Shown here one piece after another: positions 27,424 to 32,829 of a DNA stretch of 64,000 nucleotides. How positions within the stretch are numbered: position 1 is the first letter of the stretch; the number at the start of each line of letters is the position of its first letter. The notes below the pieces were generated by a model. It saw only the letters and a program-made list of their open reading frames with translations, was not told the DNA's origin and did no database searches. Source of the stretch: Bacillota bacterium (lineage in GTDB: Bacteria > Bacillota > Sulfobacillia > JAIMAT01); assembly GCA_029961055.1 (NCBI GenBank), contig JASBVM010000005.1:129487-193486 (forward strand), read 5' to 3'. The position numbers were made by a program, and so were the translations under genes.

Positions 27424-28328
27424 AGCTGGATCGTCCACGGGTACTCGTCCACCACCGGCTCCAGGTCCAGCACCGACATCGGGATGCTGAAGCGGCCGCC
27501 GTCGCGGTCGGTGAGCTCCGCCATGCGCACGAAGTTGGGCGCGACCTCGTCCGGATAGACCACCGTGTTCCTCCGGAAGAGGCGCATGCGCGCGAAGGCG
27601 TCAGGAAGCGGACCGGGCGTCCCCTGGGCGGCGCGCACCTCCTCCACCCGGCGCGCCACCGGGGGGCGGCCGGGCCTCTCTTCCTGGTAGGCGTTGACGA
27701 AGACGGTCTCCTGCCAGAGCGGGCCCCGGAAGGCCGCCAGCACCTCGCGCACCGCCCGCTCGGCGCCGCGGCCGAAGTTGCCGGGGATCACCGCCACCTG
27801 CGCCCGCAGCACCTCCGGATCGGCCACGCTGAGGAGCGGCAGGTAGACGTCGCTGCAGATCAGGAAGAGGGCCGTCAACGGCTCCTCCCCGCCGGGCGGC
27901 CGCAGGCGGACGCGGTGGAGCCGGCGGTACGGCCGGACGCCGATCTCCGCGAAGCGGGGGTCGTAGTGCCGCTGCTCGAAGGACTGGACGGTCACCTTGG
28001 CCTGCGGGGTGTGCAGCTCGCCGTGCCGCGTCACCACCACCAGCGTGTTGTAGGCGGCGCCCGGCTCGGCGCCCGGCAGGCGGCCTCCCACCTCCTCCGG
28101 GACCAGATTGAGGGTGGTGATCAGGTTGAGGCCGAGGCGGCGCGCGGCCTCGCTCAGGGCGGCCAGCGCCGCCCTCGAGGCGTCGCGGGTGTAGGCCAGG
28201 TACTCGGGGAGGACGACGCAGGCGCCTGCCGGCGCGTCAAGGCGCTCCAGGCGCTCCAGCGCCTGGCCGAGCACCTCGGGCTCCGGCCCCATCCTGTAGG
28301 CCAGCGGCAGCCAGACCGGCCCGCTCAC
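27420..28328 (-). CDS. Carbon-nitrogen hydrolase (nitrilase-superfamily-like) protein
   Basis: 302 residues. The three catalytic positions of the nitrilase fold can be placed: Glu in VVLPEYLAY, Lys in TPQAKVTVQ and Cys in FLICSDVYLP, followed by AQVAVIPGNFG. Members hydrolyse amides or nitriles, or transfer acyl groups. Sequence around each residue is unusual, and the C-terminal part (GRFSIPMSVLDLEPVVDEYPW) is not one I recognise, so this is a divergent member. It lies between manC and an MBL hydrolase, overlapping both by 4 bases (GTGA), so the three are probably made together. The substrate is unknown. Confidence 0.62.
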   Translation of the reverse strand: MSGPVWLPLAYRMGPEPEVLGQALERLERLDAPAGACVVLPEYLAYTRDASRAALAALSEAARRLGLNLITTLNLVPEEVGGRLPGAEPGAAYNTLVVVTRHGELHTPQAKVTVQSFEQRHYDPRFAEIGVRPYRRLHRVRLRPPGGEEPLTALFLICSDVYLPLLSVADPEVLRAQVAVIPGNFGRGAERAVREVLAAFRGPLWQETVFVNAYQEERPGRPPVARRVEEVRAAQGTPGPLPDAFARMRLFRRNTVVYPDEVAPNFVRMAELTDRDGGRFSIPMSVLDLEPVVDEYPWTIQL

Positions 28329-29521
28329 GGCCGGCCGGCCCCCGCTCCCGGTGCCGCCCGGCCCGCCGCGGGCGCCGTGGGTGCCGCCCCCCAGGGCGCT
28401 CCCGCCTCGGGCGCCGGGTTCTCCGCCGGCGGGCGCTCGCCCACATCGTCCACCAGCCGCCCGTAGCCCTGGCGCCGGAGGGCGGCCAGAAGCTCCTTCC
28501 AGTCCGCCGCCCGCGCCTTGGGTGCCACCACGGTGACGCGCGGGGTATGGACGGTGAGCAGGTCCTGCGTGCCGAAGGCGATCAGCATGTGCCCCGCTTC
28601 CTCGTTGTGGAGGGTGCAGCCCGTCGCCGCCAGCGCCAGCCCCTCCCCCCAGACGCGGTTCCCGCGCTCGTCCGCCTCGGTCAGCCGGTCCAGCGCCGCC
28701 CAGCTGCCCACGTCGTCCCAGGTGAAACGGCCCGGGACCACGGCTACGTCGCCGCCCAGGCGCGCCTCGTCCTGCATGACGCCGAAGTCGATGCTGATGG
28801 CCGGGAGCCCGGCGAAGAGGGCGGCCCTCTCCTCGGGCGGCGCCTCCCAGGCTCGCTCCAGACCTTCGCGCAGCGTGGGCAGCCGCCGCCCGATCGCCTC
28901 CAGGATGCTGCGCGCCTGCCAGACGAAGATGCCGCTGTTCCAGAGGTAGCTCCCTTCCTCCAGGAAGCGGAGCGCCGTCTCCGTGTCCGGCTTCTCCACG
29001 AAGCGGTCCACCCGATAGGCGCCCTCCACCGCCCCCAGCGGCCCGCCCAGGTGGATGTAGCCGTAGCCGGTCTCGGGCCGGGAGGGCCGGATGCCCAGCG
29101 TCACCAGCGCCCCCCGGCGCGCCGCCTGGACGGCCCGGTCGACGGCCAGCGCGAAGGGATCCAGGTCGGAGAGGTAATGGTCGGCGGGCATCATCACCAG
29201 GACGGCCTCCGGGTCGGCGGCCAGCAGATGGAGCGCCGCCCAGCCGATCCCCGCCGCCGTGTCGCGGCGGACCGGCTCCAGGATCAGGCGCCTCGCCACC
29301 AGCGCCGGAGGAAGCTGGTCCCTCAGCAACGCCTCGTACTCGGCGGCGCTGGAGACCCAGATCCGCTCCTCCGGCACCAGGGCGCGCGCCCGCTGGAGCG
29401 CCTCCTGGAGGAGCGTCCGCTGCCCGAAGAGGCGGATGAACTGCTTGGGCACCGTGGGCGTCGAACGCGGCCAGAAGCGCTCCCCCCGGCCACCCGCCAG
29501 GATGACCACATGCTCGGCCAT
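28325..29521 (-). CDS. manC: Mannose-1-phosphate guanylyltransferase
   Basis: 398 residues. EHVVILAGGRGERFWPRST, then PKQFIRLFG, is the nucleotidyltransferase signature; LILEPVRRDTAAGIG, MPADHYLSD, FVEKPD, SGIFVW and FTWDDVGSW are typical of GDP-mannose pyrophosphorylase. It makes GDP-mannose for glycans. There is no C-terminal phosphomannose isomerase domain; instead the last about 40 residues are an Ala/Pro/Gly-rich tail. The ATG at 29521 follows GTGGAGGTGGAACG. It is first in a minus-strand operon and divergent from the SpoIIP fusion gene. Confidence 0.92.
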   Translation of the reverse strand: MAEHVVILAGGRGERFWPRSTPTVPKQFIRLFGQRTLLQEALQRARALVPEERIWVSSAAEYEALLRDQLPPALVARRLILEPVRRDTAAGIGWAALHLLAADPEAVLVMMPADHYLSDLDPFALAVDRAVQAARRGALVTLGIRPSRPETGYGYIHLGGPLGAVEGAYRVDRFVEKPDTETALRFLEEGSYLWNSGIFVWQARSILEAIGRRLPTLREGLERAWEAPPEERAALFAGLPAISIDFGVMQDEARLGGDVAVVPGRFTWDDVGSWAALDRLTEADERGNRVWGEGLALAATGCTLHNEEAGHMLIAFGTQDLLTVHTPRVTVVAPKARAADWKELLAALRRQGYGRLVDDVGERPPAENPAPEAGAPWGAAPTAPAAGRAAPGAGAGRP

Positions 29522-29714
29522 CGTTCCACCTCCACGATCAGGCGGCTTCGGCGTGGGACGGCTCTGCTCCTCTCTCGACGCCGGATCGGGCGCCGGGAGA
29601 CCGGCGCCGGCGACCGGGGCCGGCGACCGCCTTCGAGGGCGGCGGCCCCCGGATGCCGGCCGGCTCCGGGCGGGCAGGCTAGAGCGCGAGCTCTCACGGG
29701 GAGGTGGGCCCAAG

Positions 29715-31790
29715 CTGCCGGACGTCTGGCCCGTCGGCTCGATCCTGGCCGTGGGCGCCCTGGCCGCCCTCTCCCTGGGGGCGGGCCAGCACGTCCTCGA
29801 GGCCCTCGGGCTGGCTCCACGCCAGGCCTGGCTTCTCCTCTCCCTGCTGGCGGTCAGCGGCTGGATCCCTTCCGTCGCCTGGGGGTCGGTCCGGTTCAAC
29901 CCGGCCGCCACCCTGATCCCCCTGGGGATCAGCCTCTACCTCCTGCTGGGGGCCGACCGGCGCGAGGAGAAGGCGCATGCGGCCGTCGCCTCGGTCCTCA
30001 CCCTCTCCGTGGTCTTCGCCGGCGACCAGCTCCTGCCCGCCGACCCCGGTGCGGGGCAGGGCGCCCTCTCCACCTTCGCCGACCCGACCTGGGCTCCGGG
30101 CCTGGCGGGCGGGCTGCTGGGCGCGCTCCTGGGCGGCTCCGTACGGGGCGCCTACGTCGCCGCCACGCTGGCGGTGCTGGGGAACGACCTGGTCTCGGTC
30201 TTCCTGGCCTCGCTGGTGGCGGTGCCCGGCGCCCTCGCCGCCCTGGGCGGGGCGGGGGTCCTGGACAGCACGGTGATCGCCGGCTTCGTCGCGGTCCTCC
30301 TGACCGAGGGCTTCCGCTGGCTCCGCGCCCGCCTGCTGCCGCCGGCCCGGGGGCGACGCCGACGGCTGGCCCGGCGGCCCGCGCGGGCGTGGAGGCGGTA
30401 TACGCGCCGCCCGCTGCCCGCAGCGGGCGGTCCGGGGCGGGGCGGGCTCAGCCTGGGCGTGGCGCTCGTCCTGCTGGTGGGCGGCTGGTGGGCCGGGCCT
30501 TACGGGCCGGACGCGCTGGCCCGGGGAGGGCCCTGGGGGGACGAGCGGCTCTCCGGGCCGCCCGTGGCCCTGCGGGCTCCGTCGGCCCTGCTCTGGCGGA
30601 CCGGGCGCCTGCTCGGCGCAGGCGACGCCTGGTCCTCGCCGCGGGGACGCTGGTACCGGGTGGTGCGGGTGGAGGGGGGGACGGCCTGGGCCGAGCCCGT
30701 GGAGGCACCCCGCCGTCCGGGAAGCCCCCTTTCCCGGGCCGGACCGGCGGGAGGGCAGGCACCCGGCGGCCGGGAGGCGGGGAGACGGCGCGTCGCGGTG
30801 GGGGCGCCGCCCCGCCAGCTGCGCGTGGGCCTCTACGTCACCCACAACGACGAGGCGTACACCGCCGGCCGAGGCGAAGCGGGGCCCCGGACCGTGGAGG
30901 AGGCGGCCAGCCACCTGGCTCGCAGGCTGGCGGCGGAGGGACTGGCCGCCCGCTTCGACCCGAGCCTCCACCTTCCCCACGATCGGGGCGCCTACCGGCG
31001 TTCGCGGCGGAGCGCCCTCGCCCTCCTGGCCCGGGGAGGAAGCTCCATCCTCCTGGACGTCCACCGCGAACTGGCGCCCCAGGGAGCGGTCGACGTCCCC
31101 GGGCTGGGACGGGCGGCTCCGGTGGTGCTGGTGGTCGGGCGGGGCGACCCGCACTACGCGGCCAACCTGGCCTTCGCCCGCCAGCTGCGGGAGCTGGCGG
31201 CCGGCCGTTATCCGGGGCTGGTGAGCGGCATCCTCCTGACCGCCGGGGATTACAACCAGGACCTCTCACCCTTTGCGCTCCTCCTGGAGCTGGGTGCCTC
31301 CGACAGCCGCCCCGCGGAGGTGGACCGTTCGATCCGGGGCCTGGCCGCGCTCCTGGCCGACTGGAGCCGCGCGCGGCAGCCTCCGGAGGGCGGCCGCCGA
31401 GCCCCCGCGGCGGGGCCGGCCCCGGCCTATCGACCCGCTCCGGCGGCGAGGCGGGCGGCCACGGAGGCGGGCACCCAGTTCATCCCGTCGGGCACGTCCA
31501 GGTGGGTGGCGTCGTCCCCGGGAACGCCGGTCACGCCGAACTGCCAGACGATGGAGTCGCTCGCGGGGTCGATGACGACGACGCGGTGGTCGGCGTCGTC
31601 GTTGACGGCGACCAACCCGTTGGGCAGGCGGATGGCCAGGGAGGGCAGGCGGAGCCTGCCCGCTCCCGAGACCGGGGCGTACCGCCAGAGCACCTTCCCG
31701 CTGGTCGTCACGCGCAGCACCTGGCCGGGGTCGGTGTACCCCGCCACCAGGATGCTGCCGTCGGGCAGCAGCTGCGCGTCGGAGGGGTAG
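29715..31790 (+). CDS. spoIIP: Membrane protein with DUF1614-like N terminus fused to stage II sporulation protein P (SpoIIP)
   Basis: About 691 residues. Residues about 8-210 have six likely membrane helices (for example AWLLLSLLAVSGWIPSVAWG, then VLDSTVIAGFVAVLLTEGF) and resemble DUF1614. A basic linker and one more helix (GVALVLLVGGWWAG, about 250) lead to a SpoIIP domain at about 370-555: GLYVTHNDEAYT, SSILLDVHREL, RYPGLVSGILL, DYNQDLSPFALLLELG. SpoIIP is an amidase/endopeptidase that thins septal peptidoglycan during engulfment. The best Shine-Dalgarno (GGGGAGGTGGG) points to CTG 29715; GTG 29553 and GTG 29751 are alternatives. The frame continues 364 bases into the antisense of the next gene; these last about 120 residues are probably not conserved. 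Confidence 0.72.
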   Translation: MPDVWPVGSILAVGALAALSLGAGQHVLEALGLAPRQAWLLLSLLAVSGWIPSVAWGSVRFNPAATLIPLGISLYLLLGADRREEKAHAAVASVLTLSVVFAGDQLLPADPGAGQGALSTFADPTWAPGLAGGLLGALLGGSVRGAYVAATLAVLGNDLVSVFLASLVAVPGALAALGGAGVLDSTVIAGFVAVLLTEGFRWLRARLLPPARGRRRRLARRPARAWRRYTRRPLPAAGGPGRGGLSLGVALVLLVGGWWAGPYGPDALARGGPWGDERLSGPPVALRAPSALLWRTGRLLGAGDAWSSPRGRWYRVVRVEGGTAWAEPVEAPRRPGSPLSRAGPAGGQAPGGREAGRRRVAVGAPPRQLRVGLYVTHNDEAYTAGRGEAGPRTVEEAASHLARRLAAEGLAARFDPSLHLPHDRGAYRRSRRSALALLARGGSSILLDVHRELAPQGAVDVPGLGRAAPVVLVVGRGDPHYAANLAFARQLRELAAGRYPGLVSGILLTAGDYNQDLSPFALLLELGASDSRPAEVDRSIRGLAALLADWSRARQPPEGGRRAPAAGPAPAYRPAPAARRAATEAGTQFIPSGTSRWVASSPGTPVTPNCQTMESLAGSMTTTRWSASSLTATNPLGRRMAREGRRSLPAPETGAYRQSTFPLVVTRSTWPGSVYPATRMLPSGSSCASEG

Positions 31791-32659
31791 GTCAGTCCGG
31801 GCAGCTTCAGATCCCAGAGCACCTGCCCCCGGGGGGAGAGCCGGAGGACGTGGGAGCCGCCGATCTCGGTCACCAGCATGCCGCCGTCGGGAAGCGGGGT
31901 GTCCCCGTTGGGGCTGGCGAGGTAGCGGGGCGGCCGGTGGAGGCAGGCGCCGGTGGTCCCGATCTGCCGCACCACGCGGCCGTCCGGGGCGATGAAGAGG
32001 ATCCGGCAGTTGCGGATGTCGGCGACCGTCGTGGTTCCCTGGGGTACCCCGGCCAGCCGTGCCTCCTTCGGGCTGAGGCGGTAAGCGTCGTCGGGGCCGT
32101 TCAGGTAGCCCCGGGCGGCACCCGGCACCCCGGGGTGGCCGTAGTGCCAGAGGACACGCCCGCTCACCGGGTCGATCTCCGCGATGACGTGGTGGTCTTC
32201 CTCGTTGGTGATGATGCTGCCGTACCCGGGCGTGAAGAAGGCGTCGTCGGGGCCGTCGGCGGGCCGGTTGCCGGCCCAGAGCGGGGCGAAGCGGTAGGAC
32301 CAGAGGATCCGCTTCCGCTCGTCCACCAGCAGCAGGCGGTGGTTGTAGCGGTCGGCGATCAGGAGCGCCCCGCCGGCCAGGGGGCCCGACCCGCCGGGGG
32401 AGACCTCGCCCGCCGCGGCGCCTCGTCCGCCGTTGGCGGCGGCGCCGGAAGCGGCGGCCGTACCGCCGCCCCCCTTCGCGGCCTGGACCGGGTGGCCGGC
32501 CGCTGCGTGCCGGGAGGAAGCGGGCGCCGCCTGCCCGGAGCAGGCGGCCAGGGCGCCCAGGAGGAGGGCGAGCAACCCGTACCAACGGAAGCGCGCGCGG
32601 AAGCGCCCGCGCGCCGATCGCGCCACCGGTGCCGGTGGGACCCGGGGATCCGTCCGCAT
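31427..32659 (-). CDS. Predicted lipoprotein with beta-propeller (PQQ/NHL-like) repeats
   Basis: 410 residues. A lipoprotein signal (RWYGLLALLLGALAAC, lipobox LAAC, Cys at about 34) and a low-complexity Ala/Gly linker are followed by repeated blades such as ALLIADRYNHRLLLVD, HHVIAEIDPVSGRVLWHYG, GSHVLRLSPRGQVLWDL and GQVLRVTTSGKVLWRY. Such repeats form a beta-propeller; the family often binds PQQ or other ligands, or acts as a scaffold outside the cell. No catalytic residues can be named. The ATG at 32659 follows GGGAGGGGACGCAC; earlier in-frame ATGs lack this. Its 3' end lies over the tail of the SpoIIP fusion. Confidence 0.78.
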   Translation of the reverse strand: MRTDPRVPPAPVARSARGRFRARFRWYGLLALLLGALAACSGQAAPASSRHAAAGHPVQAAKGGGGTAAASGAAANGGRGAAAGEVSPGGSGPLAGGALLIADRYNHRLLLVDERKRILWSYRFAPLWAGNRPADGPDDAFFTPGYGSIITNEEDHHVIAEIDPVSGRVLWHYGHPGVPGAARGYLNGPDDAYRLSPKEARLAGVPQGTTTVADIRNCRILFIAPDGRVVRQIGTTGACLHRPPRYLASPNGDTPLPDGGMLVTEIGGSHVLRLSPRGQVLWDLKLPGLTYPSDAQLLPDGSILVAGYTDPGQVLRVTTSGKVLWRYAPVSGAGRLRLPSLAIRLPNGLVAVNDDADHRVVVIDPASDSIVWQFGVTGVPGDDATHLDVPDGMNWVPASVAARLAAGAGR

Positions 32660-32695
32660 GTGCGTCCCCTCCCGCAGCATCCACAAGCGAGAAGT

Positions 32696-32701
32696 ATTGT
32701 A
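32696..32701 (-). promoter_or_regulatory. Possible -10 element for the lipoprotein gene
   Basis: On the minus strand the bases read TACAAT (within GTATACAATACTT), about 37 bases before the lipoprotein ATG. No convincing -35 hexamer is found at the right distance, so this is a weak call. The same AT-rich patch also serves as the gap before the plus-strand P5C dehydrogenase gene. Confidence 0.35.
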
Positions 32702-32829
32702 TACGTCTTCCCCGTGCTCACCCGGCATGGGGACACCCGGGGACGAGGGGAGAAGCTAAGATGGTCACGATGGACATCCCGGGGGAGCGGGGCCCCGTCC
32801 GGGTCCAGGTCAAGGGGGGATCGAGGAAG

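Follow-up and report, generated by a model that had tools for sequence, protein, structure and literature searches.

A single-chain fusion of a DUF1614-like membrane domain with a second SpoIIP-type amidase domain in Bacillota, and its proposed role in sporulation

In a 64,000-nucleotide stretch of DNA from a Bacillota bacterium of the Sulfobacillia (contig JASBVM010000005.1, positions 129,487 to 193,486; hereafter the window), we identified a single open frame on the forward strand, at 29715-31790, that spans a DUF1614-like polytopic membrane part through to a SpoIIP domain. We propose, with a probability of about 0.55, that this fused gene encodes a single-chain membrane amidase in which DUF1614 would scaffold or activate a second amidase of SpoIIP type in sporulation. 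The evidence lies in the anatomy and kinship of the protein, the adjacency of the two genes in relatives, co-occurrence with spoIVA and the predicted folds.

The preliminary description of this DNA had joined the two parts in one continuous frame. This holds: the frame is open throughout, codon-position GC follows one phase across its three parts (0.80/0.53/0.96, 0.85/0.75/0.89 and 0.83/0.54/0.89), and at least 15 of the 154 genomes surveyed in the class carry the full-length form. The frame is already open upstream of 29715, and the CTG at this position is probably the start codon of the fused gene. No in-frame ATG, GTG or TTG lies near it, and a likely ribosome-binding site read from the sequence, GGAGGTGG, occupies 29700-29707 (+), 7 bases before the CTG. 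In one congener (L006) the same CTG is preceded by GGGGAGGTG; in another (L007) the CTG occurs without GGGGAGGTG. From this probable start to the first in-frame stop, the gene comprises 691 codons plus the stop. The end formerly placed at 31430 had to be abandoned, as there is no stop codon there and the frame continues to a stop whose last base is 31790. In two congeners, too, the SpoIIP domain is not followed directly by a stop.

The C-terminal tail of the frame (31431-31790, +), its last ~120 codons, is antisense to a convergent gene at 31427-32728, and its conservation is explained by the other strand. Indeed, we dropped the idea that the tail is under selection as a functional segment: its pN/pS of 0.31-0.49 in the forward frame is no evidence for it, because codon-position GC there fits the gene on the opposite strand. 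The convergent gene encodes an NHL/PQQ-repeat protein, and its antisense overlap with the fused frame covers ~360 bases (31427-31790). On the other side of the fused gene lies a mannose-1-phosphate guanylyltransferase-like gene (28325-29518, -), whose best match, GMP_PMI, is below cut-off and which covers the transferase part only of that model.

The anatomy of the protein was read from a structure model with a mean pLDDT of 85.8 and a pTM of 0.83. The DUF1614-like polytopic membrane domain (29733-30335, +; residues 7-207) is followed by an Arg-rich, presumably cytoplasmic linker (30336-30431, +; residues 208-239) with 12 K+R and no D+E, and by an anchor helix (30432-30494, +; residues 240-260), so that the basic linker and further helix of the preliminary description were both recovered. 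Next comes a small juxtamembrane beta domain (30537-30710, +; residues ~275-332), modelled with a pLDDT of about 95-97 at 281-330 and with five strands at about 284-329. Its pattern, GDxW/YI...WYRVxxVxGxxAxA, also occurs in separate SpoIIP relatives, and no Pfam family was found above cut-off for it in the four stretches searched. The SpoIIP catalytic domain, of Amidase_3 fold in the model, occupies 30813-31379 (+; residues 367-555). It carries His377 (30843-30845, +), which aligns with the YHTH His of the genome's other SpoIIP, and, in the alignment of the fused proteins with this other SpoIIP, Glu380 of a THxxE motif (30852-30854, +), His450 of a DVHR motif (31062-31064, +) and Glu525 of an LLELG motif after NQDL (31287-31289, +). 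These four residues are invariant across 11 fused proteins and line up with those of the other SpoIIP.

By eye, the 29 separate SpoIIP relatives listed have a hydrophobic N-terminal stretch and then a GDxx-YxV pattern. Judged by this comparison of layouts, the fusion event did not create the anchor and beta domain by chance, because the separate relatives show the same arrangement. In several of them the hydrophobic stretch resembles, again by eye, a cleavable signal, and for this reason the fusion may add a firm membrane tether to the SpoIIP part.

The C-terminal part has a Pfam match to SpoIIP (PF07454) over residues 369-548 at 117.4 bits (cut-off 24.4; E 1.1e-33). The DUF1614 match (PF07758, residues 59-196) reaches 19.5 bits (E 0.001) and falls below the cut-off of 23.9. 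However, all six fused relatives tested pass this cut-off (L008, L009, L010, L021, L028 and L039; 30.5-47.3 bits), and they align with the window protein over its full length at 31-37% identity. By way of these intermediates, and because they pass, the N-terminal part is on alignment grounds a diverged DUF1614 relative. The six DUF1614-like helices first proposed are thus borne out as regards homology but not in number, since the model has seven, with a short strand pair at 54-61; for the family, a passage of PMC5898192 describes six membrane helices, by prediction, and a beta loop that separates the second helix from the third. Four DUF1614 residues, Y83, D160, G177 and G180, are invariant over 39 rows.

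The predicted fold of the catalytic domain is that of Amidase_3 enzymes, with 3ne8 (Z 13.5, rmsd 4.2, 170 aligned residues) and 7b3n (Z 13.2, rmsd 3.4, 155 aligned) as matches of the model; the top 23 rows of the search are amidases, amidase endolysins or amidase-bearing entries. Zinc binding by the SpoIIP domain would follow from this predicted fold. The DUF1614 model found no clear match in the PDB (best Foldseek E 0.3; best VIA Z 6.3), and a search of solved structures by DUF1614 sequence returned no relative, the best matches being unrelated. The top VIA match is a sweet-receptor membrane domain, followed by ECF S-components and FtsX/LolC-type proteins at Z ~4-6; we rejected these matches as signs of kinship, Z values of ~4-6.3 being within the range that helical bundles give. 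The proposed scaffold or activator role is accordingly not read from structure.

The genome encodes a second SpoIIP (L003), which adjoins lepA and holds the place of the engulfment SpoIIP. With the NCBIfam model TIGR02867 (stage II sporulation protein P; cut-off 123.15), the lepA-side protein passes at 133.7, whereas the fused one fails at 97.4, and the PHDxxAYxRSR signature of the fused SpoIIP is absent from the other. SpoIID and SpoIIM are encoded as well. Judged from profile scores and gene position, the SpoIIP part of the fusion is a paralogue and not the engulfment SpoIIP, and the engulfment set of the genome is complete even when the fusion is left aside, since separate SpoIIP, SpoIID and SpoIIM are all present. 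The two share a catalytic family, aligned active-site residues and a predicted Amidase_3-type fold, but the fused paralogue is joined to DUF1614 and not to SpoIIM, and lies outside the lepA locus. Further SpoIIPs in three genomes (G016:C20:26968-27846, G011:C21:156077-156898 and G037:C6:152786-153685) match the fused model as far as the beta-domain region and have no adjoining DUF1614 among the matches listed; they may form a third, solo group.

To describe the spread of the two forms, we surveyed all 154 genomes of the class with a model built on the fused proteins, at an E threshold of 1e-30; the counts are lower bounds. The model matched at least 77 genomes. Full-length fusions occur under 9 family codes, and the recurrence of this form indicates more than chance; its carriers include closed genomes, such as that of G043 with a chromosome of 2,844,696 bases. 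DUF1614 and spoIIP are also adjoining genes in relatives: adjacent separate genes were found in at least 47 genomes, both forms in at least 4 and either in at least 58. Five more DUF1614 rows have no adjoining SpoIIP among the matches listed, the cases being contig ends, a SpoIIP on another contig, or no SpoIIP among those matches.

A contig scan of named genomes across Bacillota, in which the best 80 of 261 relatives were kept and which favours loci with both parts, gave 72 split neighbours, 6 fused forms and 2 SpoIIP-only loci at contig ends. The 72 split pairs overlap or lie at most 37 bases apart (longest-frame starts), and are present in Syntrophomonas wolfei, Thermosyntropha lipolytica, Alkaliphilus transvaalensis, Mahella and Tepidanaerobacter. 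A separate spoIIP gene in relatives, which had been held to speak against the fusion, is thus true of most of them, and shows the origin of the fusion while leaving the fusion itself unrefuted. Taken together, the fusion and the neighbouring genes in most related spore-formers suggest that DUF1614 and SpoIIP work as one machine in spore formation. One type II pair (L043; types are defined below) sits on a contig labelled Desulfovibrio among Bacillota sequences and is probably misbinned.

A tree of 109 loci (4 of the 113 given were left out, one part being missing) separates two types. Type I comprises 63 rows, all split, nearly all of which have at least one of YIEGIA, the small YIEGIA partner, DUF3189, DUF512, Der and IDI2 (fni) as neighbours; two show none within the stretch covered. 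In several genomes the type I pair lies ~4-8 kb from spoIVA. Type II comprises 46 rows, namely 18 fused (13 distinct, five genomes being counted twice) and 28 split. None of the type I neighbours was seen beside type II rows, many of the fused stretches having a 1.5 kb flank only. Among the 28 split pairs of type II, 13 (L046, L047, L049, L058, L064, L067, L069, L075, L086, L095, L100, L101 and L109) lie near ytvI, a gene for a sporulation membrane protein. The fused loci have no conserved neighbours: dprA-topA was seen in one, tsaD in one and a patatin gene in two lineages. In the window genome the rpsA-YIEGIA-der-spoIVA locus is intact and lacks a DUF1614-SpoIIP pair, and the module is therefore present there as the fused gene only. 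On our best reading, the fused form derives from a type II copy relocated out of the spoIVA-der-YIEGIA locus. The same genome also holds a stand-alone DUF1614 gene (L001:1363-2019, G000:C12; 161 bits) with no adjoining SpoIIP, flanked by an S-adenosylmethionine hydrolase gene and an EAL-domain gene.

Independent fusions were considered and are the less likely reading: a single origin of all 13 fused proteins is not rejected (AU p 0.875), and the tree constrained to it has a higher likelihood than the free tree, by 13.9 log units. The first, free tree had separated the window genus, which has a long branch and odd composition, from the other fused proteins. In a larger, quick tree built with no mixture model, the fused rows adjoin and two changes are needed, L011 being placed with split type II. 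One fusion origin is likely from these trees, which place the window genus only tentatively.

The link to sporulation was examined in 398 genomes drawn from the phylum, using a DUF1614 model that needs no adjoining SpoIIP and also catches solo DUF1614. It matched 271 genomes and SpoIVA 334, with both in 264, DUF1614 only in 7, SpoIVA only in 70 and neither in 57. In other words, DUF1614 is found in 264 of 334 SpoIVA-positive and 7 of 64 SpoIVA-negative genomes (Fisher P 1.4e-25, a value that ignores kinship and overstates the independence of related genomes). Four of the 7 DUF1614-only genomes are 61-80% complete and the others 90-95%. As 70 of the 334 SpoIVA-positive genomes lack the DUF1614 model, DUF1614 is not essential to sporulation everywhere. 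In a first set of 61 genomes, 12 carry a fused protein, and each of these has SpoIVA. The type strain of Thermaerobacter marianensis is described as a spore-former in part of PMC3035304. For the fused form, the link to sporulation comes from its relatives, since the fused loci themselves have no conserved neighbours. When the regions preceding the DUF1614 start were searched in a set of 97 non-redundant loci, each of the sigE, sigF, sigG and sigK motifs had 0 or 1 match, which does not exceed the counts in shuffles. An apparent enrichment seen with a looser promoter pattern (8 of 107 against 2.1 expected from shuffles) faded once near-copies were removed, patterns and region narrowed and order-1 Markov shuffles used.

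In Bacilli, the family to consider is YphA (PF24124). While the window protein does not match it up to E 1, some split DUF1614 partners do, part of them above cut-off. Five genomes with strong YphA matches have SpoIVA and lack the DUF1614 model. In their YphA loci (L140-L144), YIEGIA lies beside the gene in 4 of 5, Der in 5 of 5 and IDI2 on the opposite side in 4 of 5, with no SpoIIP gene in between. YphA therein occupies the same slot, between fni and YIEGIA-der, as DUF1614-SpoIIP does elsewhere, but without a SpoIIP neighbour. A profile-profile comparison of YphA with DUF1614 was weak (probability 2.3, E 0.02, with five YphA rows only) and gave no confirmation of homology. Kept on Pfam scores and gene position, YphA is likely the DUF1614 half of the pair.

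Mechanistically, we can propose the following. The DUF1614 bundle would lie in the membrane with the Arg-rich linker in the cytoplasm, and the anchor helix would take the chain outward, placing the beta domain at the outer membrane face. There the SpoIIP domain, as a putative zinc amidase of Amidase_3 fold, would cleave stem peptides off peptidoglycan outside the cell membrane at some stage of sporulation. PDB 7tj4, a fold match of the catalytic domain at Z 11.9, is the LytH amidase of Staphylococcus aureus with its polytopic membrane activator ActH. LytH is likewise a membrane-bound enzyme that shares this fold and works with a polytopic partner; the system differs in being vegetative and made of two chains, and ActH is a membrane protein with no known kinship to DUF1614. 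The engulfment SpoIIP of the SpoIID-SpoIIM-SpoIIP complex is also partnered with a polytopic membrane protein, SpoIIM, which is thought to scaffold SpoIID and SpoIIP (PMC9600426, in part). By analogy with these two systems, DUF1614 would serve its SpoIIP as a dedicated scaffold or activator, with the fusion as a 1:1 single-chain version.

Other explanations have to be weighed against this proposal. DUF1614 could have an activity of its own, in transport or in lipid or precursor handling, and simply be co-located with the amidase, without serving it as scaffold or activator. We regard this as unlikely, although DUF1614 is known without SpoIIP (in the stand-alone copy of the window genome and in archaeal members, seen in control genomes and reported in a passage of PMC5898192), four of its residues are invariant, and it faintly resembles ECF S-components over part of its length (4m58, Z 5.8, 119 residues; ThiT is among the Foldseek top matches). 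Z values of such size are common for helical bundles, however, and the pair stays adjoining or fused across many families. A part in vegetative wall growth or division, and not in sporulation, would agree with the position of the fused loci outside the sporulation locus and their variable surroundings. It appears distinctly improbable in view of SpoIVA in 12 of 12 fused genomes, of DUF1614 in just 7 of 64 SpoIVA-negative genomes and of YtvI near the split type II pairs.

We give still less credence to the idea that the fused protein is this lineage's own engulfment SpoIIP and has taken over canonical engulfment. While the intact catalytic residues would permit it, the lepA-side SpoIIP is the one that passes TIGR02867, and SpoIID and SpoIIM accompany it. 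The link to peptidoglycan thinning during engulfment that the preliminary description had drawn is accordingly not established as written, whereas its homologies, its fusion and its hint to DUF1614 stand. An artefact, by frameshift or misassembly joining two genes, is hardly conceivable: high GC yields long chance frames and the C-terminus runs antisense into another gene, but recurrence in at least 15 genomes of 9 family codes, closed ones included, refutes an assembly artefact for the family.

In 2015, bacterial DUF1614 (COG4089) genes were noted near SpoIIP and yphB (YIEGIA), and membrane remodelling was proposed (passage in PMC5898192). The same two families and the YIEGIA neighbour are found here, but as one chain, in a relocated type II copy, with a shared beta domain and spoIVA co-occurrence. 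We found no report of a DUF1614-SpoIIP fusion in the literature on DUF1614, COG4089 and SpoIIP fusions or paralogues, and the excerpts of PMC9600426, PMC12700454, PMC3533761, PMC517825 and PMC11448272 do not mention one. Relative to these sources and to the passage in PMC5898192, the fusion, the two types, the SpoIIP-side beta domain and the spoIVA co-occurrence appear to be new.

That two proteins are joined by gene fusion argues strongly for their joint action. With it, the remark of 2015 on a gene neighbourhood becomes a definite pairing, open to testing, for DUF1614, a family without a described function in the literature searched; the functional hint first seen in this fusion is thereby supported. 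Moreover, co-occurrence with spoIVA ties DUF1614 to sporulation, and YphA of Bacilli is possibly the surviving half of the pair. Tentatively, and with more doubt than conviction, we suggest that DUF1614 and a second SpoIIP-type amidase may form an unrecognised machine that remodels the wall during spore formation, as a counterpart of SpoIIM-SpoIIP, and that most sporulating Bacillota other than Bacilli possess. In Bacilli only the membrane half would survive, as YphA, the amidase having been lost, and some deep lineages would have duplicated the module and fused it into a single chain. If this is true, endospore formers would own another amidase of SpoIIP type, paired with a membrane protein of its own.
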